Of a stretch of DNA of 64,000 nucleotides, positions 8,381 to 23,819 are shown one piece after another (within the stretch, counting starts at the first letter, position 1; each line of letters begins with the position of its first letter). A model generated the notes under the pieces. The model saw nothing but the letters and a program-made list of their open reading frames with translations. It ran no database searches and was not told the DNA's origin. This stretch comes from Bacteroidales bacterium (GTDB lineage: Bacteria; Bacteroidota; Bacteroidia; Bacteroidales; UBA932). The stretch covers positions 1-64,000 of the forward strand of contig JAFSBV010000001.1 of the NCBI GenBank assembly GCA_017437125.1, read 5' to 3'. The translations under genes and the position numbers were made by a program.

Positions 8381-9703
8381 TTATATGATTACTCTTTCGA
8401 TAATCGGAGTCTGGTGACTGTAAGGGATGAATGCCAGGGATGGGATCGGTCTGGTGATGATGAGATTGGCTTTTTTGCCGATTGTTATTGATCCGAGGAT
8501 GTCGCTGACGCCCATTGCGTATGCTGTGTTGATTGTGCAGGCATTCAGGGATTGTTCCGGTGTCAGTCTCATCTTGATGCAGCCGAGGGCCATTACGAAC
8601 CTCATGTTTCCGCTTGGACTTGAGCCCGGGTTGTAATCTGATGCCAATGCTACGGGAAGTCCTGCTTCGATATAATCCTTTGCTCTGCCGTATGGGAGAC
8701 CGAGGAAGAATGAGCATCCTGGGAGCATCGTAGGCATGGTGTTGCTTTCTCTCAGCACCTCGATTTCTGCGTCTGTGGTCTTTTCAAGATGATCTACCGA
8801 AAGTGCATCATATTTTACTCCGACCTGAACTCCGCCTGATACTTCCAGCTCATTAGCATGAATTTTAGGTCTGATTCCAAATCCGGCAGCTGTCTCAAGG
8901 ATTCTTGCTGTTTCTTCAATTGTAAAGAAACCTGCATCACAGAATACATCGACATAGTCAGCCAGACCTTCTTCCGCTACTCTCGGTAGCATTTCATTGC
9001 AGACCAGATCCACATACTCGCTTTGTCTGCCTCTATATGCTCTTCCGACTGCGTGCGCACCAAGGAAATTAGCCTTTACAGTGATCGGAGATGTTTCCTT
9101 GATCCTTTTGATGACTCGAAGCATCTTCAGCTCATCTTCCACTGTCAGCCCGTATCCGCTTTTGATCTCGACAGCACCGGTTCCCATCGCCATGATCTCA
9201 TTCACGCGTACCATAGACTGCCTGTAGAGCTCCTCTTCAGATGTTTCATGGAGCAGATCCGCAGAATTGAGGATACCTCCACCTCTGGCAGCGATCTCCT
9301 CGTATGAAAGCCCCGCAATCTTATCCCTGAATTCACCGTCCCTGCATCCCGCATAAACTATATGCGTATGTGAGTCGCAGAAACACGGCAGCACGTATCC
9401 CCCCTTCGCATCAATGTATTCAGTCTCATTACTGTCGCTGTTTCCGGAGATATTGGTATCGGAAACAACCCCTCCCACTCCTGCGGAGCGGGCCCCTCCT
9501 CCTGCGGCCAAGAGGGTAGCACGGTTTCCGATACCAATATCTCCGGAAACAGGTCCGAAATCAGCAATGACGCCGTCTTCAATCACAAGATATGCATCTT
9601 CAATACACTCCACATGTCCCATCGCCTCACCCTCCAGCTTCCTCACATCAGCCGGCAGAATTCCCGCCAGAGTTCCAATATTATATATTACTGTCCTTTT
9701 CAT
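8381..9703 (-). CDS. hutI: Imidazolonepropionase carrying an in-frame palindromic insertion
   Basis: This enzyme hydrolyses 4-imidazolone-5-propanoate to N-formimino-L-glutamate, the third step of histidine degradation. Amidohydrolase landmarks are all present: metal ligands in CDSHTHIVYAG, then VEIKSGYGL, HAVGRAYRGRQ, HANELEVSGG and LASDYNPGSSPSG. The protein has 440 residues against about 415 usual. The excess lies between ADFGP and EYIDAKGG, where a segment including NRATLLAAGGGARS comes from the 115-bp palindromic element at 9438-9552. The insertion precedes the metal-binding barrel core, so activity is probably kept. hutH lies upstream, separated only by a second copy of the element. The ATG at 9703 is the only plausible start. 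Confidence 0.95.
   Translation of the reverse strand: MKRTVIYNIGTLAGILPADVRKLEGEAMGHVECIEDAYLVIEDGVIADFGPVSGDIGIGNRATLLAAGGGARSAGVGGVVSDTNISGNSDSNETEYIDAKGGYVLPCFCDSHTHIVYAGCRDGEFRDKIAGLSYEEIAARGGGILNSADLLHETSEEELYRQSMVRVNEIMAMGTGAVEIKSGYGLTVEDELKMLRVIKRIKETSPITVKANFLGAHAVGRAYRGRQSEYVDLVCNEMLPRVAEEGLADYVDVFCDAGFFTIEETARILETAAGFGIRPKIHANELEVSGGVQVGVKYDALSVDHLEKTTDAEIEVLRESNTMPTMLPGCSFFLGLPYGRAKDYIEAGLPVALASDYNPGSSPSGNMRFVMALGCIKMRLTPEQSLNACTINTAYAMGVSDILGSITIGKKANLIITRPIPSLAFIPYSHQTPIIERVII
9438..9552. repeat. Palindromic element inside the hutI coding sequence
   Basis: A perfect 29-bp inverted repeat (9438-9466 with 9524-9552) encloses a 57-nt core. The core matches, at about 50 of 57 positions, the reverse complement of the core in truB, and shares a 30-nt block with the copy at 9747-9807. 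It stays open in the hutI frame as about 38 codons. Two small hairpins can form in the core (CTCC-TGC-GGAG and CTCCTG-CGGC-CAAGAG). Confidence 0.93.
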
Positions 9704-9722
9704 ACTATGATTCTTCTTTATG

Positions 9723-9831
9723 CGTCATACGGTTGTTTTTTAAGACTGAATCCCTCCCACTCCTGCGGAGCGGGCCCCTCCCGTTCACAAAGCCACGGGC
9801 GGCTATGGTCTTAAAAAACAACCGTATGGCG
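9723..9831. repeat. Divergent palindromic element filling the hutH-hutI spacer
   Basis: Arms 9723-9746 and 9808-9831 pair over 24 bp with a single G-T wobble around a 61-nt core. The first 30 nt of the conserved core are identical to the hutI copy. The second half differs in sequence yet can still form a hairpin (CCCGT with ACGGG). The element occupies nearly the whole 130-bp gap between the hutH stop and the hutI start, so it must be transcribed and could act as a processing or attenuation structure. Confidence 0.88.
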
Positions 9832-9833
9832 TG

Positions 9834-11306
9834 TTAACGAATGAATTCTACAGACTTCTCGATAAGCGGATGCATATAAGTATCATCCTCAATGAAAGGC
9901 ACCACCTTGCGATAGCCCGCAAAAATCTTCTCTATAGCCCATGAAGACTTCAACGGACGACGGAACTGAAGAGCCTGAGCAGCATTGAAAAGCTCGATCG
10001 CAAGAACGCGCTCAGTATTCTCGACAACGCGTACAAGCTTTGTAGCAGCGTTCGCACCCATGCTGACATGGTCCTCCTGACCCTGAGACGACGGGATCGA
10101 ATCAGCCGATGCCGGCATACAGAGTCCCTTGCTCTGGCTTACGATAGAAGCAGCAGTATATTGAGGAATCATGAAACCGCTGTTCAGACCAGGCTTTGCA
10201 ACCAAGAAGTTAGGAAGACCTCTCTGGCCGGAAATCAGCTTATATATTCGTCTTTCCGAGATATTTGCCAGTTCGGAGAGAGCGAGAGTCAGCATATCCA
10301 TAGGAATGGCGATAGGCTGGCCGTGGAAATTGCCCGCTGAAATGATGAGATCATCGTCCGGGAATACTGTAGGATTGTCAGTGGCACTGTTTATTTCGGT
10401 CTCAATCACGGATTTCACATACCTGATAGTATCTTTCGATGCACCATGAACCTGAGGAATGCAGCGGAATGAATAAGGATCCTGAACATGAATCTTCTTC
10501 TGTCTTATGATTTCGCTGCCCTCGAGAAGCTCCCTGAAACGCGCAGCTGTCTCTATCTGTCCCTTATGGGCACGAACCTCATGAACCTGAGGATAGAAAG
10601 GCTCGATACGGCCGTCATATGCCTCAAGTGACATTGCTCCGATCTTGTCAGCCCAGTCGGAAAGCCTTTCAGCCTGAATCAAAGACCATACAGCATGAGC
10701 ACTCATGAACTGCGTACCGTTAAGCAGGGCCAGACCTTCTTTCGACTTGAGACGGATAGCCTCCCATCCGAATTCCTTCCACAGCTCTTCTGCCTGACGG
10801 ACTTCTCCCTTATACATGACTTCTCCCATGCCGATCAGTGGCAGGCACATGTGCGCAAGGGGAGCGAGGTCACCGGAAGCACCGAGAGATCCCTGCTGAT
10901 ATACCACAGGAAGAATATCATTATTGAACATGTCTATGAGACGCTGGACTGTGATGAGCTGAACACCCGAATATCCGTACGAAAGAGACTGGATCTTGAG
11001 AAGGAGCATCAGCTTGACTATCTCCGGGCGGACAGTCTCGCCGGTTCCGCATGCGTGTGACATCACGAGATTATGCTGAAGCTGCGAAAGATCTTCAGCT
11101 GGGATCGTGATATTGCAGAGTGAACCGAATCCTGTAGTCACGCCATAAACCGGCCTTCCGATGTCTTCCATCTTGGTGTCTAAGAACTTGCGGCACTTGA
11201 TTATCGCTGCCTCAGCCTCTTTGCCAAGCTCGAGACGAGTACCTTCGGCCAGAATGGCCTTGACATGATCGATAGTGAGTTTCTTGTGTGAAATTATATG
11301 GCTCAT
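9834..11306 (-). CDS. hutH: Histidine ammonia-lyase
   Basis: This enzyme deaminates L-histidine to urocanate and ammonia, the entry step of the pathway. The A-S-G triplet that cyclises to the MIO cofactor is seen in GSLGASGDLAPLAHM, and the family block GNFHGQPIAIPMD is present. The start at 11306 (MSHIISHKKLT) gives 490 residues. The longer frame from 11333 would begin inside the -7 box at 11331-11338, so it is unlikely. The gene begins its own transcript with hutI and is separated from hutU by the Wzi and Stealth genes. The neighbouring gene diverges from it within 55 bp. Confidence 0.96.
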   Translation of the reverse strand: MSHIISHKKLTIDHVKAILAEGTRLELGKEAEAAIIKCRKFLDTKMEDIGRPVYGVTTGFGSLCNITIPAEDLSQLQHNLVMSHACGTGETVRPEIVKLMLLLKIQSLSYGYSGVQLITVQRLIDMFNNDILPVVYQQGSLGASGDLAPLAHMCLPLIGMGEVMYKGEVRQAEELWKEFGWEAIRLKSKEGLALLNGTQFMSAHAVWSLIQAERLSDWADKIGAMSLEAYDGRIEPFYPQVHEVRAHKGQIETAARFRELLEGSEIIRQKKIHVQDPYSFRCIPQVHGASKDTIRYVKSVIETEINSATDNPTVFPDDDLIISAGNFHGQPIAIPMDMLTLALSELANISERRIYKLISGQRGLPNFLVAKPGLNSGFMIPQYTAASIVSQSKGLCMPASADSIPSSQGQEDHVSMGANAATKLVRVVENTERVLAIELFNAAQALQFRRPLKSSWAIEKIFAGYRKVVPFIEDDTYMHPLIEKSVEFIR

Positions 11307-11330
11307 GATGTTTTTGAAATTGGTATTACA

Positions 11331-11338
11331 CAAAGATA
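11331..11338 (-). promoter_or_regulatory. -7 promoter box for hutH-hutI
   Basis: The minus strand reads TATCTTTG, a full consensus match, 24 nt before the chosen hutH ATG. It lies back to back with a plus-strand box at 11350-11357. Confidence 0.65.
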
Positions 11339-11349
11339 TGAATTATAAT

Positions 11350-11357
11350 TATCTTTG
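11350..11357 (+). promoter_or_regulatory. -7 promoter box directly before the Wzi-family gene
   Basis: TATCTTTG ends only 4 nt before the ATG at 11362. If used, transcription would begin at or next to the A of the start codon, giving a leaderless mRNA. Confidence 0.5.
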
Positions 11358-11361
11358 CCAT

Positions 11362-12855
11362 ATGAAACAGACATCTATTTTCAGAATCATAACTATAGCG
11401 GCAGCAGTATTCTGCGCCGTATCCAATGCATATTCCCAGAACTTGAAGATCGATTGGGGAGGATCGGCGAATGCATTGACAGGAACAGGCGAATATCTTC
11501 CTTTCTGGGCAAGGACAGGCCATGACGGAGTCATGCCATATACATCTTCCGGTGTGCTTACATTCGGGGCGGATGTGATGTACGGTGAGACGGATGGATG
11601 GAACTTCGAAGCGGGAACCAACCTTGTCGGAGCCATTGCGGCCGGCAGTCCTGTCGCTCCAAGGGATGCATATGGACTTGTTGACAGATTATATGTTTCC
11701 GGCTCATGGAAAATGCTTCACCTTGATATAGGAATGAAGCCGAGAGCTCGGGAACTTGCTGACATATCCGTTTCCGGAGGAAATGTAATGTACTCCCGGA
11801 ATGCGCGTAACATACCTGGAATCAACGCATGGTCGGACTGGATCTGGTTAGGAAAAGGGAAGAAGGTCGCATTCAAAGGCAATCTCGCTCATTATCAGAT
11901 GATCGATAACCGTTTTGTTGACGGCGCCATGCTTCATAACAAGGCTCTCTCCATGAAGTTCGCGCTAACCGGCAGGATTGATTTCAGCCTTGGATTCGAG
12001 CATTGGGCTCAATGGGGAGGCGTATCTCCTCTTTACGGCCCTCAGCCTGTGTCAATGATGGATTATGTACTCATATTCGTCGCCGGCAAGGGACGCGAAG
12101 GCGCTTCGACATCTGACAAGATAAACGTGCTTGGAAACCATCTGGGAAAGGAATATTTCCGATTCGACTATAAGGCCGACTCGTTCACCCTGACAGCCCA
12201 GTATGACAAGCCTTTCGAAGACGGCTCGGGAATGAGATTCAAGAATGTTCCTGACGGAATATGGTCCCTGCAGTGCTCTATGAATGACCGTGATGCCTTT
12301 GTGACCGATGTTATATATGAATTCATAAGCACGACATGGCAGTCCGGTCCTGATCATGACCGTCCGGCGACGGAAGAAGAGAAGGCCGAACAGGATCCGA
12401 GCGAACCTACCTATGGAAAGGTTGTCCTCGGAGGTTGTGACAATTATTTCAATAACGGAGAATACAGGTCGGGATGGACCAATTATAACAGAGTCATCGG
12501 ATGTCCTCTGATTATTCCGTATGCTCCCGGAGCTGACGGAATAACGACAGCGATGGCAAGCAACAGACTGCGCGGCCATCATTTCGGTATCAAAGGAGTG
12601 GCCTTTGACAAAATTCCATACAGATTCATGGCAACCTATACGAAGAATTACGGAAGGTACAAGCAGGCAGAGACTTCTCCGTTTGCAAGTACTCCGAAGC
12701 AGCTTTCACTGGCGCTTGAACTGGAATTCGGTGAGAGAATGATGGATCTTCCTATAGCTTTTGCCGTAGGTGCCTATGCGGATATGGGACAGCTGTATCA
12801 GGACAGCGCAGGACTTACATTGAGATTCTTCTACGGCAGAGGACGCAGGTTCTGA
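11362..12855 (+). CDS. Wzi-family outer-membrane beta-barrel (capsule assembly)
   Basis: A 497-residue protein with a signal peptide (MKQTSIFRIITIAAAVFCA, cleavage near NAYSQ) followed by an outer-membrane barrel. Patches such as YFNNGEYRSGWTNYNRVIG, the later RGHHFGIKG and the C-terminal TLRFFYGRGRRF are typical of the capsule assembly Wzi family (PF14052 as remembered) in Bacteroidetes. In E. coli, Wzi is a lectin-like barrel that anchors capsule; the specific role here is inferred. The ATG at 11362 starts the signal peptide, whereas upstream in-frame starts overlap hutH. Its 3' end overlaps the convergent Stealth gene by 25 bp, a possible functional pair for surface polysaccharide. Confidence 0.78.
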   Translation: MKQTSIFRIITIAAAVFCAVSNAYSQNLKIDWGGSANALTGTGEYLPFWARTGHDGVMPYTSSGVLTFGADVMYGETDGWNFEAGTNLVGAIAAGSPVAPRDAYGLVDRLYVSGSWKMLHLDIGMKPRARELADISVSGGNVMYSRNARNIPGINAWSDWIWLGKGKKVAFKGNLAHYQMIDNRFVDGAMLHNKALSMKFALTGRIDFSLGFEHWAQWGGVSPLYGPQPVSMMDYVLIFVAGKGREGASTSDKINVLGNHLGKEYFRFDYKADSFTLTAQYDKPFEDGSGMRFKNVPDGIWSLQCSMNDRDAFVTDVIYEFISTTWQSGPDHDRPATEEEKAEQDPSEPTYGKVVLGGCDNYFNNGEYRSGWTNYNRVIGCPLIIPYAPGADGITTAMASNRLRGHHFGIKGVAFDKIPYRFMATYTKNYGRYKQAETSPFASTPKQLSLALELEFGERMMDLPIAFAVGAYADMGQLYQDSAGLTLRFFYGRGRRF

Positions 12856-13814
12856 TAGAGCCTGTTTCTTACCCAGTCCAGAACCTTCTGCCGGTCTTCC
12901 TCACAGGCCAGGCTCAGTGCATTCACGCAGCAGAAAACCGCATCGAGCCTTGAGTCGAACATGGCCAGTTTCCTGTCAATATAACCTTTCTTGTCCTTCG
13001 GTTTCAGATAGACGAGCCTGCTGTCGGTGTCGATCACATTACAGCGGCCTTTCCTGTATTCGGAAATATAGAAAAGTTCCTGAGAGTTATATTGCTCCGC
13101 ATGACGGAACCGGTGTCTGATGTTCCTTATCATGACATCATCCCTTCCAGTGAAGAAGTCCTCATAGAAACTTTTCCTCAGTGCACGGGGAGTATGTCCC
13201 AGAAACATGAATCTCCGGCTTCCTCCCATGATGTCAACGGCATTGACCATGGAATCCTTGAAACTTATACGCTTGTGACCATTTCTGGATGGCCTCAGCA
13301 GCCGCATCAGCCTTGCCCACCAGGTAAGATACATCTTTGCATAGCAGACAGTACTGTCTCCCTGAAAGAAATCCTCCGGACTGACCTTGCCGGTAATGAT
13401 GAAATCGTCGTTCATCAGAATGAATCGCTCGCTCAACCCCGGGATCCTCCATATCATGGTCTCGATCGCCCTCGAATTGAATGTCGGAAGGTAATCCTCA
13501 TATCCTCTGAATATGACCTTGTGGTCAATGATTTCCATCGGAATATGGCCGTCAGGAAAGATACGGGATATTTCCTCCCCAATCATGGGATCCTGGCCGT
13601 CTGTAACGATGAATATCTTCCTGATGAAGGGTGCGTATATGTTTATGGACAGGATGCAATAGAAAATCTCTCCGATGCTGGTGAATCTGCTTGACCCGCC
13701 CACATCTTCGAGATTCTCTTCATTTGATCCTGTGTTGAATCCGTGACGCTTCGCAGAGTGGACGGGATCGTTCCCGTCCACCCATGGAATCACTATGTCA
13801 ATCGCTTCCGTCAT
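12831..13814 (-). CDS. Stealth-family sugar-phosphate transferase
   Basis: A 327-residue protein with the conserved regions of the Stealth family in order: IDIVIPWVDGND (CR1, residues 5-16), then IFIVTDGQDP, FNSRAIETMIWRIPGL and FILMNDDFIITG (CR2), and ending with an RHRFRHAEQYNSQELFY block. Known members move hexose-1-phosphate units from nucleotide sugars to build capsule or exopolysaccharide, and include the catalytic part of human GlcNAc-1-phosphotransferase. A GTG at 13826 would add four residues. The gene follows hutU by a short gap, so it is likely co-transcribed with hutU although it has no link to histidine metabolism. It converges on, and overlaps, the Wzi-family gene. Confidence 0.85.
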   Translation of the reverse strand: MTEAIDIVIPWVDGNDPVHSAKRHGFNTGSNEENLEDVGGSSRFTSIGEIFYCILSINIYAPFIRKIFIVTDGQDPMIGEEISRIFPDGHIPMEIIDHKVIFRGYEDYLPTFNSRAIETMIWRIPGLSERFILMNDDFIITGKVSPEDFFQGDSTVCYAKMYLTWWARLMRLLRPSRNGHKRISFKDSMVNAVDIMGGSRRFMFLGHTPRALRKSFYEDFFTGRDDVMIRNIRHRFRHAEQYNSQELFYISEYRKGRCNVIDTDSRLVYLKPKDKKGYIDRKLAMFDSRLDAVFCCVNALSLACEEDRQKVLDWVRNRLYQNLRPLP

Positions 13815-13837
13815 TCTCTGCGTCACAGCTCCTGTTA

Positions 13838-15859
13838 TCAGTTCAGAGCCTTTCTGATAAGCTCCTCGTCGGCAATGTTCGGCATGGTGACCTTCAGACC
13901 AGGAGTACGCTCCATCTCACGTCTGATGGCGTGCATCGCGCCCTCGTTGCGTGCCCAGCTGCGACGTGCGATGCCGTTGTTCACGTCCCAGAGCAGCATT
14001 TCCTGAATATGTCTGTCGGAATCCTCCGATCCGTCAATGACCATTCCGAATCCTCCGTTCATAACTTCTCCCCAGCCTACTCCGCCGCCGTTATGGATGG
14101 ATACCCATGTCGCTCCGCGGAAACCGTCACCGATTACATTATGAACGGCCATATCTGCGCAGAACTGCGATCCGTCATATATGTTCGATGTCTCGCGGAA
14201 AGGAGAATCGGTTCCGGATACGTCATGATGGTCGCGGCCGAGTACTATCGGAGCCGTGATCTCGCCGTTGCGGATGGCCTCGTTGAATGCTAAGGCGATC
14301 TTGGTACGGCCTTCGCAGTCAGCATAGAGGATACGCGCCTGTGAACCTACTACGAGGTTGTTGCGACCTGCTTCCTCTATCCATCTGATATTGTCCATCA
14401 TCTGGCCCTGGATCTCCTCCGGAGCTTCTGCCATGATTTCCCTGAGTACCTTTGCAGCTATCGCGTCTGACTTTGCAAGATCCTCCGGCTTCTCAGACAT
14501 GCAGACCCATCTGAATGGGCCGAATCCGTAGTCAAAGAATAGCGGACCCATGATGTCCTGTACATATGAAGGATAGCGGAAACGTCCGTCTTCGCGAAGA
14601 ACGTCTGCACCGGCGCGAGAAGCTTCAAGAAGGAAGGCATTTCCGTAATCGAAGAAATACATGCCCTTGTCTGCCAGGCGGTTTACCGCAGCTGCATGTC
14701 TTCTGAGCGACTCCTGCACGCATTCCCTGAACCTTTCAGGCTCCTCTGCCATCATTCTGTTGGATTCCTCGTATGAATATCCGACAGGGTAGTAACCTCC
14801 TGCCCATGGATTATGAAGTGATGTCTGGTCAGAGCCGAGATCCACATGTATGTCCTCGTCGGCAAGTCTTTCCCAGAGATCCACGACATTGCCCTGATAT
14901 GCTATGGAAACCACCTCCTTGTCAGCTACAGCCTTGCGGATACGTGGAATGAGCTCGTCGAGATCTTCATGTATCTCGTCAACCCAGCCCTGGTCATGTC
15001 TCTTATGAGCTGCATGAGGATTGACCTCGGCACATACGCTGACAACTCCTGAGATCACGCCTGCCTTAGGCTGTGCTCCTGACATTCCGCCAAGTCCTGC
15101 AGTGACGAAAAGCAGTCCTCTCATATTCTCCTCGGTTCCCTCTATTCCTCTGGACCTGAGCTGCTTGCGTGCTGCGTTCATGACGGTGATGGTTGTTCCA
15201 TGAACTATACCCTGAGGACCGATATACATATATGATCCGGCTGTCATCTGTCCGTACTGAGACACTCCAAGAGCATTGAACTTCTCCCAGTGGTCAGGCT
15301 TCGAATAATTAGGAATAACCATTCCGTTCGTCACGATGACACGTGGAGCGTCCTTATGGCTTGGGAAAAGGCCGAGAGGGTGGCCCGAGTACATTACAAG
15401 AGTCTGTTCGTCAGTCATTGTGGCCAGGTACTGCATCACGAGACGGTACTGTGCCCAGTTCTGGAACACTGCTCCGTTTCCGCCATATGTGATGAGCTCG
15501 TGAGGATGCTGTGCCACACGATAGTCCAGATTGTTCTGGATCATAGCCATGATGGCAGCAGCCTGCCTCGATCTTGCCGGATATTCGTCGATCGGACGCG
15601 CGTACATCTCATAGTCAGGACGGAAACGATACATATATATGCGTCCATAGTCCTTGAGCTCCTGAGCAAATTCTGAAGCGAGAGTCTCGTGATGCTCTTC
15701 AGGGAAGTATCTGAGTGCATTCTTTATAGCCAGAACCTTTTCCTCCGCGCTGAGGATCTCCTTTCGCTTCGGTGCATGGTTCACTGTTGTATCATAAGGC
15801 TTTGGCTCCGGAAGTATGGTCGGAATACCAGCCAGGATATCTTCGTGGAATCTGTTCAT
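13838..15859 (-). CDS. hutU: Urocanate hydratase
   Basis: This enzyme adds water to urocanate to give 4-imidazolone-5-propanoate, using tightly bound NAD+ as an electrophile. Family blocks seen are YGGNGAVFQNWAQYRL, MYSGHPLGLFP, GQMTAGSYMYIGPQGIVHG, the Gly-rich GLGGMSGAQPKAG and SDQTSLHNPWAGGYYP. At 673 residues it is the longer form common in Bacteroidetes, compared with about 555 in Proteobacteria. It starts 10 nt after ftcD and is followed closely by the Stealth gene, so it is the second gene of a ftcD-hutU-Stealth operon. Confidence 0.96.
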   Translation of the reverse strand: MNRFHEDILAGIPTILPEPKPYDTTVNHAPKRKEILSAEEKVLAIKNALRYFPEEHHETLASEFAQELKDYGRIYMYRFRPDYEMYARPIDEYPARSRQAAAIMAMIQNNLDYRVAQHPHELITYGGNGAVFQNWAQYRLVMQYLATMTDEQTLVMYSGHPLGLFPSHKDAPRVIVTNGMVIPNYSKPDHWEKFNALGVSQYGQMTAGSYMYIGPQGIVHGTTITVMNAARKQLRSRGIEGTEENMRGLLFVTAGLGGMSGAQPKAGVISGVVSVCAEVNPHAAHKRHDQGWVDEIHEDLDELIPRIRKAVADKEVVSIAYQGNVVDLWERLADEDIHVDLGSDQTSLHNPWAGGYYPVGYSYEESNRMMAEEPERFRECVQESLRRHAAAVNRLADKGMYFFDYGNAFLLEASRAGADVLREDGRFRYPSYVQDIMGPLFFDYGFGPFRWVCMSEKPEDLAKSDAIAAKVLREIMAEAPEEIQGQMMDNIRWIEEAGRNNLVVGSQARILYADCEGRTKIALAFNEAIRNGEITAPIVLGRDHHDVSGTDSPFRETSNIYDGSQFCADMAVHNVIGDGFRGATWVSIHNGGGVGWGEVMNGGFGMVIDGSEDSDRHIQEMLLWDVNNGIARRSWARNEGAMHAIRREMERTPGLKVTMPNIADEELIRKALN

Positions 15860-15869
15860 ATGTAAAGTG

Positions 15870-17576
15870 TTATTGGATCTTTGTGTTGACGATATCCAGT
15901 ATCTCGGCCTCTTCAGCTACGGCCTTCGCTGCGATTTCGGCCGCTTCTGCACATAGACGTCCGGCCGCTTCACGGTCAGCGAGTCCGGCCGCGTTGATAC
16001 GTACATTGAGCTGTGCACCGAGAACAGCGCTTCGTGCTGCAAGAGCACCTACGCCGGCATCCGAAACCGAATTAGGATTTCCTTCTTCAGCCATGGCACG
16101 TACGATAGGGAAGACTTCAAGAGCAGCCTTCATGGTCTTGAGAGGCACTTCGGTAGCATATAATGTCGCTGCTTCCAATGCTTCTGCACGGGCCTTCTTC
16201 TCTTCTTCCGATCCCTTAGGCATACCGATGGCGGCCATGATCCTGTCAAATGCGGCAGTGTCTTCGTCAACGAGGGCAAGAAGCCTGTTCATCAGTGCCT
16301 GGCCCTTGTCTGCCCAGTCAGAGAACTCCTTCCAGCGTGCATCCCAGCCTGCCTTATGAGATGAAAGGTTGGCTACCATGGTTCCGAGTGCCGCTCCGAG
16401 AGCTCCCATATATGCTGAGATGGATCCACCGCCCGGAGCAGGGGACTCCGATGCTGTCTCATATGCAAAGCCTTTGCATGTCATGCGTACAAGTCTCTCA
16501 CGTGCAGCAGCTTCCTTCTCGTCTTCGATAAGATATTCGATCACCTTCTCGGACGGATTGAAAGGCTTGAGATCGTCGAGGCCCATCGACTTGACGGCGA
16601 TTTTCATGATTTCCTCCTCGCTGATACCTGTCGAACGCTGCTGCTTCTCAAGGAAATATCTTCCGGCCTCGATCAGAGTACGTTTTGGTACAAGGCCGAC
16701 AATCTCGGTTCCCGTTACACGAAGACCACGTGCCTGAGCCGCCCTGCATACCTCATCGAAAGCGACGTGGAGCGGGGTGGTGTTGATATCTGTGATATTC
16801 ATCGATACCTGTGCGATACCATATTCATCGATGAACCATCCTATTGCCTTGCAGCCCTTCAATGTTCCCGGAATCATCACGGTCTTGCCGTTCTCATCCT
16901 TCACGATCTTGCCGGTGATAGGATTGCCCTCTCTCTTAGGACGGCCTTTCTCACGGACATCGAATGCAATCGCATTGGCACGGCGTGTCGATGTCGTGTT
17001 GAGGTTATAGTTCACGGCAATGAGGAAGTCACGTGCTCCGACATTTGTAGCACCGGCCTGAGCCGCACGTTCGGTATAGTGTCCGGGACCGAAGTCAGGC
17101 TGACGGTCAGGATCTCCCATCTTTTCAGGAAGAGCCTCGTATTCTCCGGCACGGCAGACTGCAAGATTCTTGCGCTCAGGCTTCTGAGCGGCAGCCTCAT
17201 AGCAGTAGCATGGAATCTCAAGCTCGTTGTATATGCGTTCTGCAAGCTTCCTTGCAAGCTCGGCGCACTCCTGAAGAGTCATTCCTGAAATAGGGATGAG
17301 AGGAAGTACATCTGTCGCACCTGAGCGCGGATGTGCTCCGTGATGCTGGCGCATATCGATCAGCTCACCTGCCTTCTTCACTCCCTGGAAGGCAGCTTCA
17401 ACCACAGCTTCAGGGCTTCCCACAAAGGTGACCACTGTACGGTTCGTGGCTTCACCGGGATCAACATCCAGTACTTTTACTCCACCGGATTTCTCGATTG
17501 CACTGACAATTGAGTCAATGACTTCCATATTGCGGCCCTCACTGAAATTAGGCACGCACTCGATGATTCTTTCCAT
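15870..17576 (-). CDS. ftcD: Fused glutamate formimidoyltransferase and cyclodeaminase
   Basis: A 568-residue bifunctional protein that ends the histidine pathway. Residues 1 to about 330 transfer the formimino group of formiminoglutamate to tetrahydrofolate (start MERIIECVPNFSEGRN, folate-site block HHGAHPRSGATDVLPL). Residues about 360-568 are the cyclodeaminase that releases ammonia and forms methenyl-THF (APGGGSISAYMGALGAAL). The fusion has the same domain order as mammalian FTCD; many bacteria keep the two as separate genes. The ATG at 17576 fits the family N-terminus; ten further residues upstream are unlikely. It leads the hutU transcript. Confidence 0.93.
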   Translation of the reverse strand: MERIIECVPNFSEGRNMEVIDSIVSAIEKSGGVKVLDVDPGEATNRTVVTFVGSPEAVVEAAFQGVKKAGELIDMRQHHGAHPRSGATDVLPLIPISGMTLQECAELARKLAERIYNELEIPCYCYEAAAQKPERKNLAVCRAGEYEALPEKMGDPDRQPDFGPGHYTERAAQAGATNVGARDFLIAVNYNLNTTSTRRANAIAFDVREKGRPKREGNPITGKIVKDENGKTVMIPGTLKGCKAIGWFIDEYGIAQVSMNITDINTTPLHVAFDEVCRAAQARGLRVTGTEIVGLVPKRTLIEAGRYFLEKQQRSTGISEEEIMKIAVKSMGLDDLKPFNPSEKVIEYLIEDEKEAAARERLVRMTCKGFAYETASESPAPGGGSISAYMGALGAALGTMVANLSSHKAGWDARWKEFSDWADKGQALMNRLLALVDEDTAAFDRIMAAIGMPKGSEEEKKARAEALEAATLYATEVPLKTMKAALEVFPIVRAMAEEGNPNSVSDAGVGALAARSAVLGAQLNVRINAAGLADREAAGRLCAEAAEIAAKAVAEEAEILDIVNTKIQ

Positions 17577-17614
17577 ATTTCGGTATATAGTTTTGTGAAT
17601 TATCAAACAACTTA

Positions 17615-17622
17615 TAAAGTTA
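17615..17622 (-). promoter_or_regulatory. Probable -7 box for ftcD-hutU
   Basis: The minus strand reads TAACTTTA, seven of eight positions in the usual promoter pattern with A replacing the last G, 38 nt before the ftcD ATG. It is the best candidate in the 154-bp gap to pnp. Confidence 0.4.
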
Positions 17623-17676
17623 GATGTTTTCCGTGAATAATCTCTCTTTCTTTAAAGTTTTTCTTTTTTATTTCAT

Positions 17677-17705
17677 AAAAAAAGCGACCCTGCATTGGAT
17701 CGCTT
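17677..17705 (-). terminator. Intrinsic terminator after pnp
   Basis: On the minus strand, AGCGA-x-CC pairs with GG-x-TCGCT (one internal mismatch) and is followed by seven T. It lies about 25 nt past the pnp stop. Confidence 0.85.
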
Positions 17706-17730
17706 CTTCATATAATATGGATGTCATGTC

Positions 17731-20055
17731 TTAGAACATCTCCGGCTCGTTGTTCTGCTCTGGAGCTTCTGCTGGGCGCTCGCGACGTGGACCTCTTGGA
17801 CCGCGGTCGTCACGGCGTGGACCTCTGTTATCATCGCGACGTGGACCACGGTTGTCACGGCGGTCATTCTCACGACGTGGGCCGCGCTCAGGGCGTGGAC
17901 GACGCTCTGGCTCGACATATCCCTCAGGCTTCTCGAGGAGTGCCTTGCGTGAAAGTCTCATCTTGCCTGTCTTCTCGTCGATCTCGAGGAGCTTTACATC
18001 CACCTCGTCACCTACATGAAGAACGTCCTCTACCTTCTCGGTCTTCTTCCAGTCGATTTCTGATACATGGAGAAGGCCTTCCTTGCCAGGGAGAATCTCT
18101 ACGAATGCACCGAACTCGAGGATAGAAACCACCTTGCCATGATATACTGTGCCTGGTTCAGGAACAGCTGTTATGCCGTTGATCCAGTTCAGAGCCTTGT
18201 CCATAGCTTCCTTGTCCTGACCGAAGATATCGACAACTCCCTCAGAAACACCGTTGGTGTTCTCCTCGGTGATTGTGATTGTTGTGCCGGTCTCGCGCTG
18301 GATACGCTGGATGGTCTCGCCGCCCTTTCCGATGATTGCACCGATGAACTCACCTGCAACACGGATCTGAACCATACGAGGAACGAACTCCTTGTACTCT
18401 GCACGTGGCTCACTGATAGTCTTCATCATCTCTCCCATGATGTGCATACGGCCCTGACGTGCCTGCTCGAGAGCCTTCTCGAGAACGTCATATGAAAGAC
18501 CGTCCACCTTGATGTCCATCTGAGTGGCAGTGATACCGTCTCTTGTACCTGTCACCTTGAAGTCCATGTCTCCGAGGTGGTCCTCGTCTCCGAGGATATC
18601 TGTAAGGATGGCGTAACGCTCGTTAGGATTGTCCTTGTCAGTGATGAGACCCATTGCAACACCTGCAACCGGCTTCTTGATCTTCACACCTGCATCCATG
18701 AGTGCAAGACATCCTGCACATACGGTAGCCATTGAAGATGAACCGTTTGACTCAAGAATGTCAGATACGACGCGTACTGCGTACGGATTCTCCGGAGCCA
18801 TAGGGATCATAGGCTTGAGTGCCCTGTATGCAAGGTTTCCGTGTCCGATCTCACGACGGCCAACACCGCGCTGCGGACGAGCCTCACCAGTTGAGAAAGG
18901 AGGGAAGTTATAGTGAAGGACGAACTGGTCTGTGTCCTGGATGAGCACTTCGTCACGCTCCTTCATGTCAAGCTTGGTTCCGAGTGTCACGGTTGAAAGT
19001 GACTGAGTCTCTCCACGTGTGAAGATGGCAGAACCGTGAGCGCATGGAAGATAGTCGGTCTCGCACCAGATTGGACGTACTGTCGTAGTGTCACGGCCGT
19101 CGAGACGTACACCCTCGTCGAGGATCATGTTTCTCATTGCGGCCTTTTCTACAGCATGATAATATCTCTCGATCATCATTCTCTTCTCTTCCTGCTCCTC
19201 CTCCGGGAGAGTTGCGTAGAATTCCTCCTTGAGAGCCTCGAATGCATCTGACCTTTCGTGCTTTGCAGAACCTGACTTTGCGATGGCATAGCATCTGTCA
19301 TAGCAGAACTCCTGGATGGCCTTGCGGAGATCCTCGTCGTTCTCCTCATGGCAGTAAGTCCTCTTCTCAGTCTTGCCTACAGCCTCTGTAAGCTCCATCT
19401 GAACCTTGCAGTGCTTCTTGATCTCCTCATGAGCGAACTTGATGGCCTCGAGCATGTCGTGCTCGCTTACCTCGTTCATCTCACCTTCAACCATCATGAT
19501 GTTGTCATATGTAGCGGCAACCATGATGTCGATGTCTGCGTCAGCCATCTCGCTGAAGTTAGGGTTGATCTTGAGCTCGCCGCCGATACGTGCTACGCGA
19601 ACCTCTGAAATAGGGCCCTCGAAAGGAATGTCACTCACTGCGAGTGCTGCAGAAGCTGCAAGTCCTGCAAGAGCATCCGGCTGGATGTCCTTCTCTGCAG
19701 AGATAAGGTTTACATTTACAAATACCTCAGCGTGGAAATCCTCTGGGAAAAGAGGTCTGAGGGCGCGGTCAACGAGACGCGCGATGAGAATCTCATAATC
19801 GGAAGCCTTTCCTTCACGCTTCATGAATCCGCCAGGGAAACGACCTGCGGAAGCATATTTCTCCTTGTAGTCCACCTGGAGAGGCATGAAATCAACGTCC
19901 TCCTTTGCATCTTTTGCACATGTTACAGTAGCGAGGAGCATTGTGCCACCCATCTTGACCACTACTGAGCCGTCAGCCTGCTTTGCAAGCTTGCCGGTCT
20001 CGATTTCTATTATCCTGCCGTCGGATAATTCGATTGTCTTTTTTACGATATTCAT
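17731..20055 (-). CDS. pnp: Polynucleotide phosphorylase
   Basis: A 774-residue 3'-to-5' phosphorolytic exoribonuclease. Two RNase PH-type domains span about residues 1-230 and 310-540. A KH domain follows ([15 protein letters not shown]), then an S1 RNA-binding domain ([16 protein letters not shown]) to about residue 700. The final roughly 60 residues are a low-complexity tail of [13 protein letters not shown]-type repeats, which the E. coli enzyme lacks. The tail is basic and disordered and probably adds RNA or partner binding. The start at 20055 ([10 protein letters not shown]) matches the family. The leader upstream is rich in hairpins, as in enterobacterial pnp, which is autoregulated. 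Confidence 0.96.
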
Positions 20056-20074
20056 TTTTCCGTCTTCAACCTGC

Positions 20075-20189
20075 CTCCCCCAATGGGAGTTATTGTTAAT
20101 TTATCATTTTCCGCCTATACGGAGCTGATAATCAAGCTCCTACATACAGTTACGTATAATATGTTGTTCTGCTCCTGCAGCGCCGCAGG
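20075..20189 (-). promoter_or_regulatory. Hairpin-rich 5' leader of pnp
   Basis: Three inverted repeats precede the start codon: CTCCC/GGGAG at 20075-20089, GGAGCT/AGCTCC at 20121-20140 and CCTGC/GCAGG at 20174-20189. In E. coli, pnp is controlled through cleavage of a leader stem and PNPase binding; a similar loop is possible here but not shown. No full TAnnTTTG box was found in this gap, so transcription may come from read-through of rpsO. Confidence 0.35.
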
Positions 20190-20224
20190 TTGATTTGTTA
20201 GCGCTGAGGAAGCGTCTTTGCGTG

Positions 20225-20267
20225 AAAAAAGGGGGATAACCCAAATTGCTTTGAGTGCTCCCCCTTC
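20225..20267 (-). terminator. Intrinsic terminator after rpsO
   Basis: On the minus strand, an AAGGGGGA/TCCCCCTT stem with a loop of about 22 nt runs into six T. It lies about 25 nt past the rpsO stop. The long loop makes partial read-through into pnp plausible. Confidence 0.75.
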
Positions 20268-20290
20268 GTCGGTTCCTACTATGATGTAGC

Positions 20291-20566
20291 TTATCGACGG
20301 AGGCCAAGCTCCTTAACGATAGCTCTGTATCTCTCGATGTCAACAGACTTGAGATAATCAAGTACGCGACGACGCTTACCTACAAGCTTAAGAAGTGAAC
20401 GACGAGTTACATAGTCGTGCTTGTTGCTCTTAAGATGCTCGGTAAGGTGAGCGATACGGTAGGAAAATAATGCCACCTGGCTCTCTGGAGAACCTGTGTC
20501 AGTATTAGACTTTCCGTACTTCTCGAAAAGCTCCTGTTTTTTCTCTGGTGCCAAATATTCAGCCAT
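20291..20566 (-). CDS. rpsO: 30S ribosomal protein S15
   Basis: A 91-residue S15 of standard length. It binds the central domain of 16S rRNA early in 30S assembly. The block [20 protein letters not shown] and the C-terminal [19 protein letters not shown] are diagnostic. The rpsO-pnp order is widespread in bacteria. A promoter box lies 73 nt upstream, leaving a leader of about 68 nt that could host S15 autoregulation. Confidence 0.97.
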
Positions 20567-20638
20567 CTTTTGAAAAAATTAGAGGTTAATAAATTATAAA
20601 ATCTGTGCCTCACCCGGATTATGGGATTTTAGCGGGCG

Positions 20639-20646
20639 CAAAGATA
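20639..20646 (-). promoter_or_regulatory. -7 promoter box for rpsO
   Basis: The minus strand reads TATCTTTG, a full consensus match about 73 nt before the rpsO ATG. Confidence 0.65.
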
Positions 20647-20730
20647 AGTATAAATTACAAGAAAACAACGGGTTCTGCTAAAAAATAGTATGATAATCCT
20701 TAAAAGTTTTTATCATTTGAATTCATTTTC

Positions 20731-20738
20731 TACCTTTA
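20731..20738 (+). promoter_or_regulatory. -7 promoter box for the YgjP-like gene
   Basis: TACCTTTA ends 11 nt before the ATG at 20750; the last base departs from the consensus G. The predicted leader is only a few nucleotides. Confidence 0.45.
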
Positions 20739-20749
20739 CCGCTACAGAT

Positions 20750-21400
20750 ATGAAAGGAGAAAAAACAATCCATGACTCCGAAATAGGAGATGTGACGTTC
20801 AGAAAGAGCGTCAGAAGCAGCCGTATGAGCATAAGGGTGCATCCTCTCAAGGGTGTGACCGTGTCCGTGCCGTATGTAGTGCCGTATGCCGCCGCAATGC
20901 TTTTCCTTCAGGCCCGACGTGACTGGGTCCTTGAAACCCTCGCCAGGCAGAAGGAAAGATTCAAGGATGTCCATGTGCCTTCCGAATCTGAGCTGGAATC
21001 ATTGCGCCGGCAGGCGAAGAAGGAACTTCCGCATCGTCTCGTCCAGCTTGCTTCCAGATATGGATTCGTTTATAATCGCGTGAGCATCAAGCATAATGCG
21101 ACCAACTGGGGAAGCTGTTCGGCAAAGGGAAACATCAATCTGAACCTGAATATCGTCAGGCTTCCGCGCGTCCTTCAGGATTATGTCCTCCTTCACGAGC
21201 TGTGCCATCTCCGTCATCAGGATCATGGCCATGCCTTTCATCTTCTGCTTGAGCATGTGCTTACGGACAATATGCTGAAACTGGTGGATGATGGTGACGA
21301 AATGGCTCTGGAAATGGCACGCAAGGCCGCTGCTTCAAAGGCAAAGTACCCTGTTGACCATACCTGCACGAGGGCTATAAGGCAATATCAGCTGGTATAG
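20750..21400 (+). CDS. YgjP-like zinc metallopeptidase (DUF45)
   Basis: A 216-residue protein of the YgjP/DUF45 family, putative zinc-dependent metallopeptidases of unknown substrate. The metal site HELCHLRHQDHGHAFH has the HExxH core with further histidines, and NWGSCSAKGNINLNLN is the other family signature. The N-terminal half carries the usual basic SRRMSIRV-like segment (SSRMSIRVHPLKGVTV). There is no signal peptide, so it should be cytoplasmic. The ATG at 20750 is used because the frame upstream overlaps the promoter box. Its stop is 3 nt from the stop of the convergent MATE gene. Confidence 0.85.
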   Translation: MKGEKTIHDSEIGDVTFRKSVRSSRMSIRVHPLKGVTVSVPYVVPYAAAMLFLQARRDWVLETLARQKERFKDVHVPSESELESLRRQAKKELPHRLVQLASRYGFVYNRVSIKHNATNWGSCSAKGNINLNLNIVRLPRVLQDYVLLHELCHLRHQDHGHAFHLLLEHVLTDNMLKLVDDGDEMALEMARKAAASKAKYPVDHTCTRAIRQYQLV

Positions 21401-21403
21401 AAG

Positions 21404-22741
21404 TCAGATCTTTCTGTTTTTCCAGCGGCCGGAGCGTATATACAGCCAGCTGCAAATGAAGAGCATACCTGCATATACATGTTCAGCTGTCCAGCATATC
21501 GCCACATCCAGCTTCAGGATTCCTATTATCACGGTGCAGTATGCCATATATACCGCGAGGGCGATCAGTTCAAGTCTGAATGCAGTCTTGGTGCTTCCCG
21601 TTCCCGAAACGGCCATGAAATATACCTGGCCTCCGACATTGATGAAGTAAGACGAGCACATGACCACCAATGCGGGTATGCAGGCATATATCAGATCCGG
21701 GATATCCGTATATATCCTCGCAAGCGTTTCCGGGAAAAGGCAGAAAATGATGATCATGATGCTGACGATGCCGTATGAAAGCTTGAGGATGCGCTTTATC
21801 AGCAATGGGACTGTATCCTGATGTCCTTCTCCGATCATGTTGCTGACCAGTGTGCTGCAGGTCGAAGAAAATGCCTGCAGGACCACCCAGATCAGTCCGG
21901 ACACACCACGTGCGATATTCGAAATGGCAAGTGCACGTTCTCCCAGATGCTCGATATAAAGGAAGAATATCAGCCATGTCGAAATGGAAATCGTATGCTG
22001 TATCATTGTCCATGTGCATACCGGCATCATGCTTTTTAGCTCAGCCATGTCGAAACGCGCAGCCTTGTCAAGACCGTACTTCGGGCGGTCGCATCTGATG
22101 CGTGTATATGCCACGAAGAATATGAGAGATACCAGTTCCGCAAGGCTTGATCCGATGGCGGCTCCGGTTATGCCAAGGGCAGGACATCCGAATTTGCCGA
22201 AGATCAGGATATAGTTGAACACCACGTTGGACAGAACCATCACCACCGAATTGAGGGTCAGGGTCTTGGTCTGTGTCGTTCCGATATAGAACGCACGGAA
22301 CATGGCAGTCATGAAGGCGAATACCATACCTGGCAGACGCCAGCGTACATAGCTCAGTGCCGCATCATATATGGCATCGGACGATACCATGAACTTCATC
22401 ATCCATGGGGTGAACAGCTCTGACAGCAGGATTATGACTCCTGAAAGCGCCAGTACGAAATACAATCCTATCCAGAAAATCCTTCCGGTAGCCTTGTAAT
22501 CACCTTCTCCGTTTCTTCTTCCTATTATGATCTGTGCTCCTATGCTGAATCCGAAGCCGATCATGAAGAGGACCATATAATAAACGATGGCTATGGCGGA
22601 AGCTCCCAGTTCTACCTCACCGACCCTTCCCAGGAATGCAGTATCGGTGAGACCGATCATCTGCTCCATTATCAGACTGATCAGGATAGGGTATGCCACC
22701 TTCCAGATGTTCCTATATGAATATGTCGCGATATTCTTCAA
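21404..22741 (-). CDS. MATE-family multidrug exporter
   Basis: A 445-residue inner-membrane transporter of the MATE/DinF/NorM superfamily with about twelve hydrophobic segments in two related halves. These proteins export cationic drugs or metabolites in exchange for Na+ or H+. The N-terminal MEQMIGLTDTAFLGRVGEVEL block is typical of the Bacteroidetes branch. The reading frame begins with TTG at 22741 (MKNIATYSYRN); the next ATG, at residue 25, would remove part of the first helix, so TTG is preferred. A terminator hairpin separates it from truB. Confidence 0.88.
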   Translation of the reverse strand: MKNIATYSYRNIWKVAYPILISLIMEQMIGLTDTAFLGRVGEVELGASAIAIVYYMVLFMIGFGFSIGAQIIIGRRNGEGDYKATGRIFWIGLYFVLALSGVIILLSELFTPWMMKFMVSSDAIYDAALSYVRWRLPGMVFAFMTAMFRAFYIGTTQTKTLTLNSVVMVLSNVVFNYILIFGKFGCPALGITGAAIGSSLAELVSLIFFVAYTRIRCDRPKYGLDKAARFDMAELKSMMPVCTWTMIQHTISISTWLIFFLYIEHLGERALAISNIARGVSGLIWVVLQAFSSTCSTLVSNMIGEGHQDTVPLLIKRILKLSYGIVSIMIIIFCLFPETLARIYTDIPDLIYACIPALVVMCSSYFINVGGQVYFMAVSGTGSTKTAFRLELIALAVYMAYCTVIIGILKLDVAICWTAEHVYAGMLFICSWLYIRSGRWKNRKI

Positions 22742-22786
22742 AATATTAAGTGCAATATAAGTGTTTAAGTGTCAGGGCGTTATGCT

Positions 22787-22816
22787 AAAACCCTGCTGTC
22801 CTATCCATGCAGGGTT
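22787..22816 (-). terminator. Intrinsic terminator between truB and the MATE gene
   Basis: An 8-bp perfect stem (AACCCTGC with GCAGGGTT) and 12-nt loop run into TTTTA on the minus strand, about 30 nt past the truB stop. Confidence 0.75.
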
Positions 22817-22844
22817 CTACTATATTGTGTTGATCGTCAGGGAG

Positions 22845-23810
22845 TTACGTTGCACTCGCTGACAGCAGCTTGATAGTCTGTTCGACCGTCAGGGAGTTTT
22901 CAACCCGGAATATGCCGCTTCTGCTGCGCTGGAGGCTGTCCAGATGAGCCCCGCTGCCGACGGCTTCCCCCAGATCTCGGGCAAATGCACGTACATATGT
23001 ACCCTTGCTGCATGATATCCTCACCACTGCCCGTGGCAGTCCGAGTGCGGAGTTGTCATTGACGTTGATTCTGCTTGACGCTTTTGAAACAACTTCCGGT
23101 TTTGCATCCGCTTCCGAGGTGGTATGGGTTTGGAAAACCGTGCTACCCCCCTGGCCGCAGGGGGAGGGGCCCGCTTCGAAGAAGTGGGAGGGGTTGTTTT
23201 CCAAACCCATACCACCTCGGAAGCCGGTCTCAAATGCCAGAAGCTCCAGCTCCGTGATATTGATGCGCGATACCCTTATGAGTTCCTCGGCCGCCTCATC
23301 CAGAGTCTTGCCCTCCTTATGAAGCTTCCTTGCCAGCTCATAGGCACGTACTCCGTCAACTGACTTTGCGGAAAACAAAGGCGCAATCTGGTCCTGCTCC
23401 CCGATGAAGACAGGAAGAGCCTCGCTGACTGTTCCGGCAGTGATATGCTCATGAGGAAAGAATCTGTCGATCTCCTTCTCAAGATCATATGAAGGAGTCG
23501 TAGCGCCGAAGGTGATGCCGGCTACATATTCCTTATGGTGCGACTGAAGCCATTCCGCAAGCTTTGTGGCCTTGCCTATGCATACCAGCAGAATGCCTGT
23601 AGCCAGTGGGTCGAGAGTTCCTGCGTGTCCTACCTTGAGATTCTTCTTGCCGAAATGACGGATAGCGGCGAACTTGATCTTCCTGATCACGTCCGCCGAT
23701 GTCCATCTGTATGGCTTGTCTATAGGGATGATGATCCCCTCCGGATAATCTTCGATGTTTCTTGACAGGAAGCTGTCTTCCGGAGTAAGGATCTTAGCGT
23801 TTATTTCCAT
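22845..23810 (-). CDS. truB: tRNA pseudouridine-55 synthase with an in-frame palindromic insertion
   Basis: This enzyme makes pseudouridine 55 in the T-loop of tRNAs. The catalytic Asp lies in KVGHAGTLDPLATGILLVCIG, and KGTYVRAFARDLGEAVGSGAHL is the second family block. The protein has 321 residues from the ATG at 23810; a TTG one codon upstream is not needed. Between ELLAFETG and LPRAVVRISCSKGTY, where relatives have only a short loop, about 60 extra residues occur. About 38 of these (including NNPSHFFEAGPSPCGQGG) are the 115-bp palindromic element at 23110-23224. The site is a surface loop before a conserved strand, so folding is probably kept. It lies 9 nt after rpiB in the gltX operon. 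Confidence 0.93.
   Translation of the reverse strand: MEINAKILTPEDSFLSRNIEDYPEGIIIPIDKPYRWTSADVIRKIKFAAIRHFGKKNLKVGHAGTLDPLATGILLVCIGKATKLAEWLQSHHKEYVAGITFGATTPSYDLEKEIDRFFPHEHITAGTVSEALPVFIGEQDQIAPLFSAKSVDGVRAYELARKLHKEGKTLDEAAEELIRVSRINITELELLAFETGFRGGMGLENNPSHFFEAGPSPCGQGGSTVFQTHTTSEADAKPEVVSKASSRINVNDNSALGLPRAVVRISCSKGTYVRAFARDLGEAVGSGAHLDSLQRSRSGIFRVENSLTVEQTIKLLSASAT
23110..23224. repeat. Palindromic element inside the truB coding sequence
   Basis: A perfect 29-bp inverted repeat (23110-23138 with 23196-23224) encloses a 57-nt core, the same dimensions as the hutI copy. The core is oriented opposite to the hutI copy on the plus strand. Differences between the two cores fall largely as paired changes in two hairpins: CTTC-TTC-GAAG here against CTCC-TGC-GGAG there, and CCCCTG-CGGC-CAGGGG here against CTCCTG-CGGC-CAAGAG there. 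The arms match each other completely but only about 16 of 29 positions of the hutI arm. Confidence 0.93.
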
Positions 23811-23819
23811 CAATGATTC

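Follow-up and report, generated by a model that had tools for sequence, protein, structure and literature searches.

A family of palindromic elements in a Bacteroidales genus with a conserved core and locus-specific arms, possibly built from host DNA

We analyzed a window of 64,000 nucleotides (nt) from a Bacteroidales bacterium (assembly GCA_017437125.1, contig JAFSBV010000001.1, positions 1 to 64,000), which contains three palindromic elements, one inside hutI, one just beside the stop end of hutH, and one inside truB. Each consists of a core between two long inverted arms, and related copies occur in many genomes of the same genus, where the core is conserved and the arms differ from locus to locus. 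With confidence about evenly divided, we read these elements as a miniature non-autonomous mobile hairpin family of a Bacteroidales genus, in which the core spreads and the arms are mostly derived from the host. A more specific proposal, which we put forward tentatively and at somewhat less than an even chance, is that the element carries only its structured core and builds its long inverted repeats afresh at each site, a hairpin-primed inverted target duplication that would also be a source of in-frame protein inserts.

Locus-specific arms around a conserved core

The comparison draws on 131 distinct core copies from fetched loci, mainly in copy-rich genomes and truB relatives and thus not a random sample. 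Their cores are of three types, A (57 nt), B (about 61 nt), and C (about 128 nt). Between copies, core identity is 0.906 in type B and 0.904 in type A, whereas the outer 15 nt of the arms are 32.7% identical among 37 type B copies and 39.6% identical among 21 type A copies, a level close to that of unrelated sequences. Over these 15 nt, the two arms of one copy are 93.2% (type B) and 89.8% (type A) complementary. The pattern holds inside a single genome (G007), whose nine type B copies have cores that are 95.4% identical, arms that are 35.2% identical, and a complementarity of 97.8%. Because near-identical cores carry different arms, the arms belong to the locus. Copies have only two arm parts in common, AAAAC/GTTTT at the inner end and, weakly, ..GGTTTTG. 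Arms were found, at a score of at least 12, in 87 of the 131 copies.

The elements of the window and their host genes are as follows.

9438..9466, plus strand: 5' (left) arm of element 1, a type A copy that lies within hutI in antisense orientation; its 29 nt are fully (100%) complementary to 9524-9552
9467..9523, plus strand: type A core of element 1, 57 nt; P3 hairpin CCCTCCCAC-TCC-TGC-GGA-GCGGGCCC, then a second hairpin and TAGCACG
9524..9552, plus strand: right (3') arm of element 1, complement of 9438-9466
8381..9703, minus strand: hutI (imidazolonepropionase), frame open through element 1; TIGR01224, 388 bits
9723..9746, plus strand: left arm of element 2, type B; 24 nt, 96% complementary
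9747..9807, plus strand: type B core of element 2, 61 nt; P3 hairpin plus H-type pseudoknot
9808..9831, plus strand: right arm of element 2, 2 bases from the stop end of hutH
9834..11333, minus strand: hutH; TIGR01225, 613 bits
23196..23224, minus strand: 5' (left) arm of element 3, a type A copy that lies within truB in sense orientation; its 29 nt are fully (100%) complementary to 23110-23138
23139..23195, minus strand: type A core of element 3, 57 nt, the second type A copy of the window
23110..23138, minus strand: right (3') arm of element 3, complement of 23196-23224
22845..23813, minus strand: truB (tRNA pseudouridine 55 synthase), frame open through element 3; TIGR00431, 174 bits

The hutI and truB elements are each 115 bp long, and both frames remain open through them. 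In hutI, the best TIGR01224 match covers residues 90-439 and begins just past the insert; the truB element occupies a hypervariable linker. At up to two mismatches, a 14-nt fragment of the core matches four places in the window against 0.33 expected, a count reached by 0 of 100 shuffles. Three of these are the elements, and the fourth is at 3712.

The original prediction, made from the window alone, described three loci that share a core between long inverted repeats, two of them with an identical 29+57+29 geometry. Both descriptions hold, the first with the refinement that the 9723-9831 core is of another subtype (B) and the second for 9438-9552 and 23110-23224, the latter with its core on the minus strand. 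The arms, predicted to be perfect within each copy, are so in elements 1 and 3 and fall short of it in element 2, where the 24-nt arms enclose a 61-nt spacer. In element orientation, the hutI and truB arms have 16 of 29 positions in common, as predicted (counted from the sequence); the arm of element 2, described as apparently unrelated, looks unlike both except at its inner end. The paired core changes are also present, CTCC/GGAG versus CTTC/GAAG in the first hairpin and a T-A versus a C-G pair in the second, and the second hairpin of the hutI copy has one uncompensated C.A mismatch besides its paired change.

Across the family, an element runs from the 5' arm through hairpin P3 (CCCTCCCAC-NNC-loop-GNN-GCGGGYCC, with a mostly fixed A.C mismatch) and a second structure to the 3' arm, and core and arms together total about 97-190 bp. 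The second structure is an H-type pseudoknot in type B (CCCGT..GGCC-ACGGG-C-GGCC) and, in its place, a plain hairpin in type A (CCCCCT..AGGGGG). Type A also contains GTAG (GGGGTAGCACG), internal and on the 3' side of the element, which the type B consensus lacks.

The covariation noticed between the window's copies holds in the larger alignments. Of the 393 cells that make up the three variable P3 pairs, 381 are Watson-Crick; the rest comprise one G.U, one A.C, and ten of other kinds. In the type B core helices (37 copies), 99.7% of 666 cells pair, and there are 43 both-side changes, a number matched by 0 of 500 shuffles (which ignore relatedness among the copies) and by none of the slid controls (0-6); the number of further pair types is unremarkable (146 of 500 shuffles as high). 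When the arms are included, 97.4% of 1406 cells pair, with 328 both-side changes and further pair types equaled by 417 of 500 shuffles. For the 21 type A copies, pairing holds in 94.5% of 693 cells, and both-side changes number 146. The fold of the core hairpin and pseudoknot may still be under selection, but the original prediction was too strong in taking covariation to mean selection on the structure, as the arms show no G.U excess on the core strand and follow host codons in one gene.

The core covariation would suit a functional structured RNA or single-stranded DNA, such as a 3' end or mRNA-stability element, whose whole fold is selected and which spreads by recombination with occasional mobility. 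We consider this improbable. G.U wobble is rare in the arms, below A.C: in 58 curated copies, with 20 arm positions each, mismatches on the core strand number 31 A.C and 10 G.T (P = 0.0015). Selection that tolerated wobble on that strand should leave the opposite imbalance, and no sign of such selection is seen. Rfam points the same way, as a scan of the window at gathering score returned only a tRNA and placed no family on the elements. At E values up to 5, a search of 10 loci gave nine low-E matches, none at its gathering score; the best, mir-5615, scored 31.7 bits against a gathering score of 82, appears by its position to lie on element 2, and was taken as a chance fit to a long palindrome. 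Because arm mismatches show no G.T excess, arm pairing is probably kept at the DNA level, for example by template switching. Given also that the arms follow host codons in one gene, templated DNA correction accounts for the covariation of the arms no less well than selection on a fold would.

Host sequence in the arms and how it may have come there

The gene in question is lpxB, in which we saw six distinct copies, one of them (L304) diverged; the lpxB of the window's own genome (G000) is uninserted. In four of the six (L192, L201, L308, and L243), the palindrome reaches, as judged by eye, into codons that are conserved in uninserted homologues. In all four, it is the arm 5' of the core that contains these codons (VW/VY, or the SG end), and the opposite arm repeats them in inverted form. 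L243 is in the opposite orientation to the others, yet its host codons are still in the 5' arm. In L107 and L304, the arms stop short of the conserved codons. The arrangement of the conserved lpxB codons in the four copies points to the 5' host flank as the template of the 3' arm, and it lends support to the original prediction's idea of an insertion process that turns local sequence into an inverted arm, alongside its reading of a mobile element.

How might such arms arise? The mobile unit would be the conserved core alone, probably with the short inner end ..AAAAC / GTTTT... The arm 5' of the core would be host DNA beside the insertion point, and the 3' arm its inverted copy, 20-30 nt long. 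A strand ending in ..AAAAC-core-GTTTT could fold back and prime synthesis on its own 5' flank, a hairpin-primed intrastrand template switch occurring at or soon after insertion, and the lpxB codons suggest that copying from 5' flank to 3' arm may be the general direction. Later template switches would rewrite one arm from the other, such that the arms change in concert and the core stays. If the arms do come from host DNA at insertion, this would be a mode of insertion that leaves an inverted rather than a direct target copy, unlike transposition with target-site duplication. Conserved enzymes (TruB, HutI, and LpxB) gain some 30-60 extra residues by these inserts, with the frame kept open.

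Concerted change is seen in orthologous pairs. L125 and L194, with type B and type C cores, respectively, differ at two adjacent positions that are altered in both arms, and L033 and L035 differ at one position altered in both arms, where the core is mostly deleted. The loci L016 and L029 are 94.4% identical over 4.4 kb around truB and have wholly different truB linkers, and linkers may be exchanged by recombination. The arm pairs are also biased: in type B, G-C outnumbers C-G by 170 to 57 and T-A outnumbers A-T by 177 to 113, and in type A the counts are 129 to 40 and 76 to 38, although the common inner consensus contributes to these counts and the outer eight positions keep only the G-C excess. 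Both excesses agree with a prediction in the Discussion of PMC8794818.

Several observations weigh against arms of host origin that are renewed by copying, or against mobility. In the truB copy L014, the conserved host codons are in the 3' arm, contrary to the rule seen in lpxB. L013 and L016 have an identical 132-nt truB linker in surrounding DNA that is about 93% identical, so arms are not always fast-changing. The inner 12-15 arm nt carry a weak consensus (..GGTTTTGAAAAC), which makes part of the arm either element sequence or a target preference. No arm was found at a score of at least 12 in 44 of the 131 core copies, some of which have an extra hairpin between arm and core and some of which are truncated. 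A cruder mismatch count of 69 arms, with inner ends misplaced in some rows, gave 34 A.C and 27 G.T, and the A.C excess could itself come from selection on the opposite strand. Finally, among the relatives compared, no strain-level pair of filled and empty sites was found, and the aligned empty sites described below are only about 75-89% identical in their flanks.

The weak inner consensus near the core would fit an ordinary palindromic element, with both arms part of the mobile unit, as in Rickettsia palindromic elements, and an old insertion whose arms have since diverged nearly without limit, their complementarity kept by template switching. The orthologues L097, L109, L222, and L233 all have the odd inner ends AAAG/CTTT, as expected of one old insertion with replaced arms, and in one genome the arms of L115 and L124 are alike, agreeing at 20 of 24 inner positions. 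However, the nine copies of G007, with cores at 95% and outer arms at 35%, would require arms to evolve far faster than the core, and the lpxB arms contain host codons. We therefore regard an ordinary palindromic element as unlikely, though credible. The arm ends of L006 and L115, with their A-run and T-run, raised a separate thought, insertion into the loop of a pre-existing terminator; this was discarded as a general explanation, since open frames also contain copies with such arms.

Copy number, placement, and mobility

The window's own genome, which its TruB relatives suggest is that of a gut bacterium, is a 2.8-Mb draft in 99 contigs, 91% complete. A relaxed core pattern finds ten copies in it, all of which have individual arms of about 21-31 nt. 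The core measures 57-61 nt in seven copies and 127-128 nt in the other three (C29, C44, and C55), where it includes an additional domain of about 66 nt. With up to two mismatches, the relaxed pattern matches 136 of 400 genomes of the genus, against 2 of 400 for a reversed-pattern control, so the family extends well beyond the three copies known to the original prediction. A stricter pattern matches 13 of 101 genomes. With one mismatch allowed, the only matches of a stricter pattern among 198 genomes drawn from the order are in the window's genome and one other (G576); three of the 198 belong to the window's own family, which leaves 1 of 195 for other families. G576, from another family, has 14 core copies, several of them adjoining repeated sequence (L331-L345). 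This patchy distribution across the genus and other families suggests horizontal spread. The type B core has no match in plasmid and phage records; the P3 motif occurs in 8 IMG/VR contigs, where its context is different.

The two main core types differ in placement. Among type A copies with enough flank, 20 of 22 lie inside an open reading frame of at least 170 codons that stays open through the insert, although L230, counted among the 20, has an intergenic orthologue (L002) and may be in frame by chance. In contrast, 11 of 65 type B copies are in open frames (Fisher P = 6e-10, A versus B), as are 1 of 7 type C copies and 15 of 30 that were not classed, the latter including the type A variants L022 and L033. 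Open frames are present in the type B consensus as well, so the placement of type B cannot be put down to stop codons alone. Type A is tolerated in frame inside genes, and type B is mostly intergenic, often just past a stop codon. In 84 armed copies classed by their neighbors, a gene ends on the left side alone in 16, on the right side alone in 5, and on both sides in 23; where there is a gene on the left (39 copies), 30 begin within 18 nt of its stop. Such a bias toward gene ends would suit the 3' end or mRNA-stability element considered above, whereas the in-frame type A copies, 14 antisense and 6 sense, do not suit a fold selected as a whole.

Two in-frame sites are hot spots, the TruB linker, which holds the element in both orientations together with other palindromes, and likewise the LpxB linker. 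The TruB linker (L011-L090) takes several in-frame palindromic or repeated inserts (L024/L029; L069, with CHSEPAEES repeats; and L070/L072/L076/L085), and TruB has a second insert site near residue 165 (L022, L033, and L034). On a truB tree of 36 rows, with labels assigned partly by eye and remnants included, the sense and antisense labels require 6 changes each, and 409 and 418 of 500 shuffles, respectively, are as low; strongly supported branches force only 2 changes. The labels are no more clustered than shuffled ones, and orientation flips were set aside as indistinguishable from independent insertions. One type C copy (L010), with a 127-nt core and 30-nt arms, is also in frame inside a long open frame, a putative GH95-like glycoside hydrolase.

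Mobility is supported by empty sites and by insertion in both orientations. At C67, several relatives have an empty intergenic space; in G066 this space is filled by a copy with other arms, and in G286 it contains a half-core in the opposite orientation. Empty sites are also seen at C74 (in G245) and at hutI (in G032), and in G236 and G245 hutI is filled with other arms. Repeated copies and empty sites thus bear out the original prediction of a mobile palindromic element akin to those of Rickettsia. An attempt to date insertions by empty sites was dropped, the relatives being too distant.

Which enzyme would move the element? The original prediction pointed to repetitive extragenic palindromic (REP) elements mobilized by RAYT, a Y1 transposase. 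Y1 genes occur in 16 of 20 genomes, including 9 of 10 copy-rich genomes and, with two genes, the window's own, and the Y1 locus L296 has, by eye, a diverged type C copy downstream. However, Y1 genes are also present in 7 of 10 zero-copy genomes, and the P3 core pattern matched none of the 20 fetched Y1 loci, some of which end at a contig end. The diverged copy at L296 makes 1 of 20 Y1 loci with a related core nearby; another (L289) has a 3-mismatch match to a 19-nt 3' motif. Several Y1 loci carry other palindromes, by eye, which also speaks against this link. With no consistent association, RAYT was rejected as the mobilizer, and we hold a REP/RAYT origin to be very improbable. Among the RAYT-like loci examined (L281-L300), several genes are flanked by these other palindromic repeats.

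A remnant of a retroelement moved by reverse transcriptase, also raised by the original prediction, seems to us barely credible. Inverted target copying may resemble target-primed synthesis, but the reverse transcriptase model RVT_1 found no match in 8 of 10 copy-rich genomes and matched 6 of 10 zero-copy genomes. The window's own genome is among the 8, and a reverse transcriptase was rejected as mobilizer there, with the limit that the missing part of a 91% complete genome may hold one.

Comparison with known systems

Rickettsia palindromic elements stay in frame, and their copies have arm sequence in common. They are 105-146 bp long, form a long stem-loop, and lie inside protein genes (PMC2229807), and they are reported to lose repeat identity over time (PMC6649704). 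The Bacteroidales elements resemble them as 100-150 bp palindromes in frame in host genes. They differ in having arms that vary from locus to locus and stay complementary (outer identity 0.33-0.40), a fixed core hairpin, and, in type B, a pseudoknot, and in occurring in another phylum. REP elements tagged with GTAG or CGTC and associated with RAYTs are 20-40 bp long, with stems of 5-13 bp and an unpaired terminal tag (PMC3733652). They too are short palindromes, mostly intergenic and some intragenic (PMC3733652), whereas the element here has a larger core, arms of free sequence, and no terminal GTAG/CGTC tag, and its core does not flank RAYT genes, apart from the one diverged case. Unlike a miniature inverted-repeat transposable element (MITE), it has no terminal inverted repeats common to all copies.

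Closer parallels to the arms come from template switching. In the mitochondria of Nematomorpha (hairworms), perfect inverted repeats in coding genes have arms that evolve in concert, for which template switching has been proposed; the account in PMC6649704, as far as we have drawn on it, mentions no conserved mobile core. Template switching creates, maintains, and corrects perfect stems, and its intrastrand form corrects to the 5' base (PMC8794818); in genes, it homogenizes arms and inverts spacers (PMC8604942). The likeness is that one arm is rewritten from the other, toward the 5' base, as the lpxB arms suggest. The difference is that the process there acts on existing sequence and here appears tied to a mobile core. 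Template switching at hairpins is usually inferred from single events, and this series of elements offers well over a hundred natural sites, in and outside genes, at which it can be followed across species.

The element family was not found described in the titles and abstracts of the literature searched, which mostly left out subscription journals and so gives weak evidence of novelty. Similar first hairpins are common in another phylum, on Azospirillum plasmids (40 records, 154 places), whose GC-rich palindromes have a P3-like hairpin, CCCTCCCAC-NNC..GNN-GCGGGCCCCTCCC. Common descent of these and the IMG/VR hairpins with the element core is conceivable. The five Azospirillum copies examined have no long locus-specific arms, and their second hairpin is TCTCCC..GGGAGA. 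A repeated unit of about 500 bp (L237, L249, L250, and L259) holds two such hairpin elements, with conserved arms.

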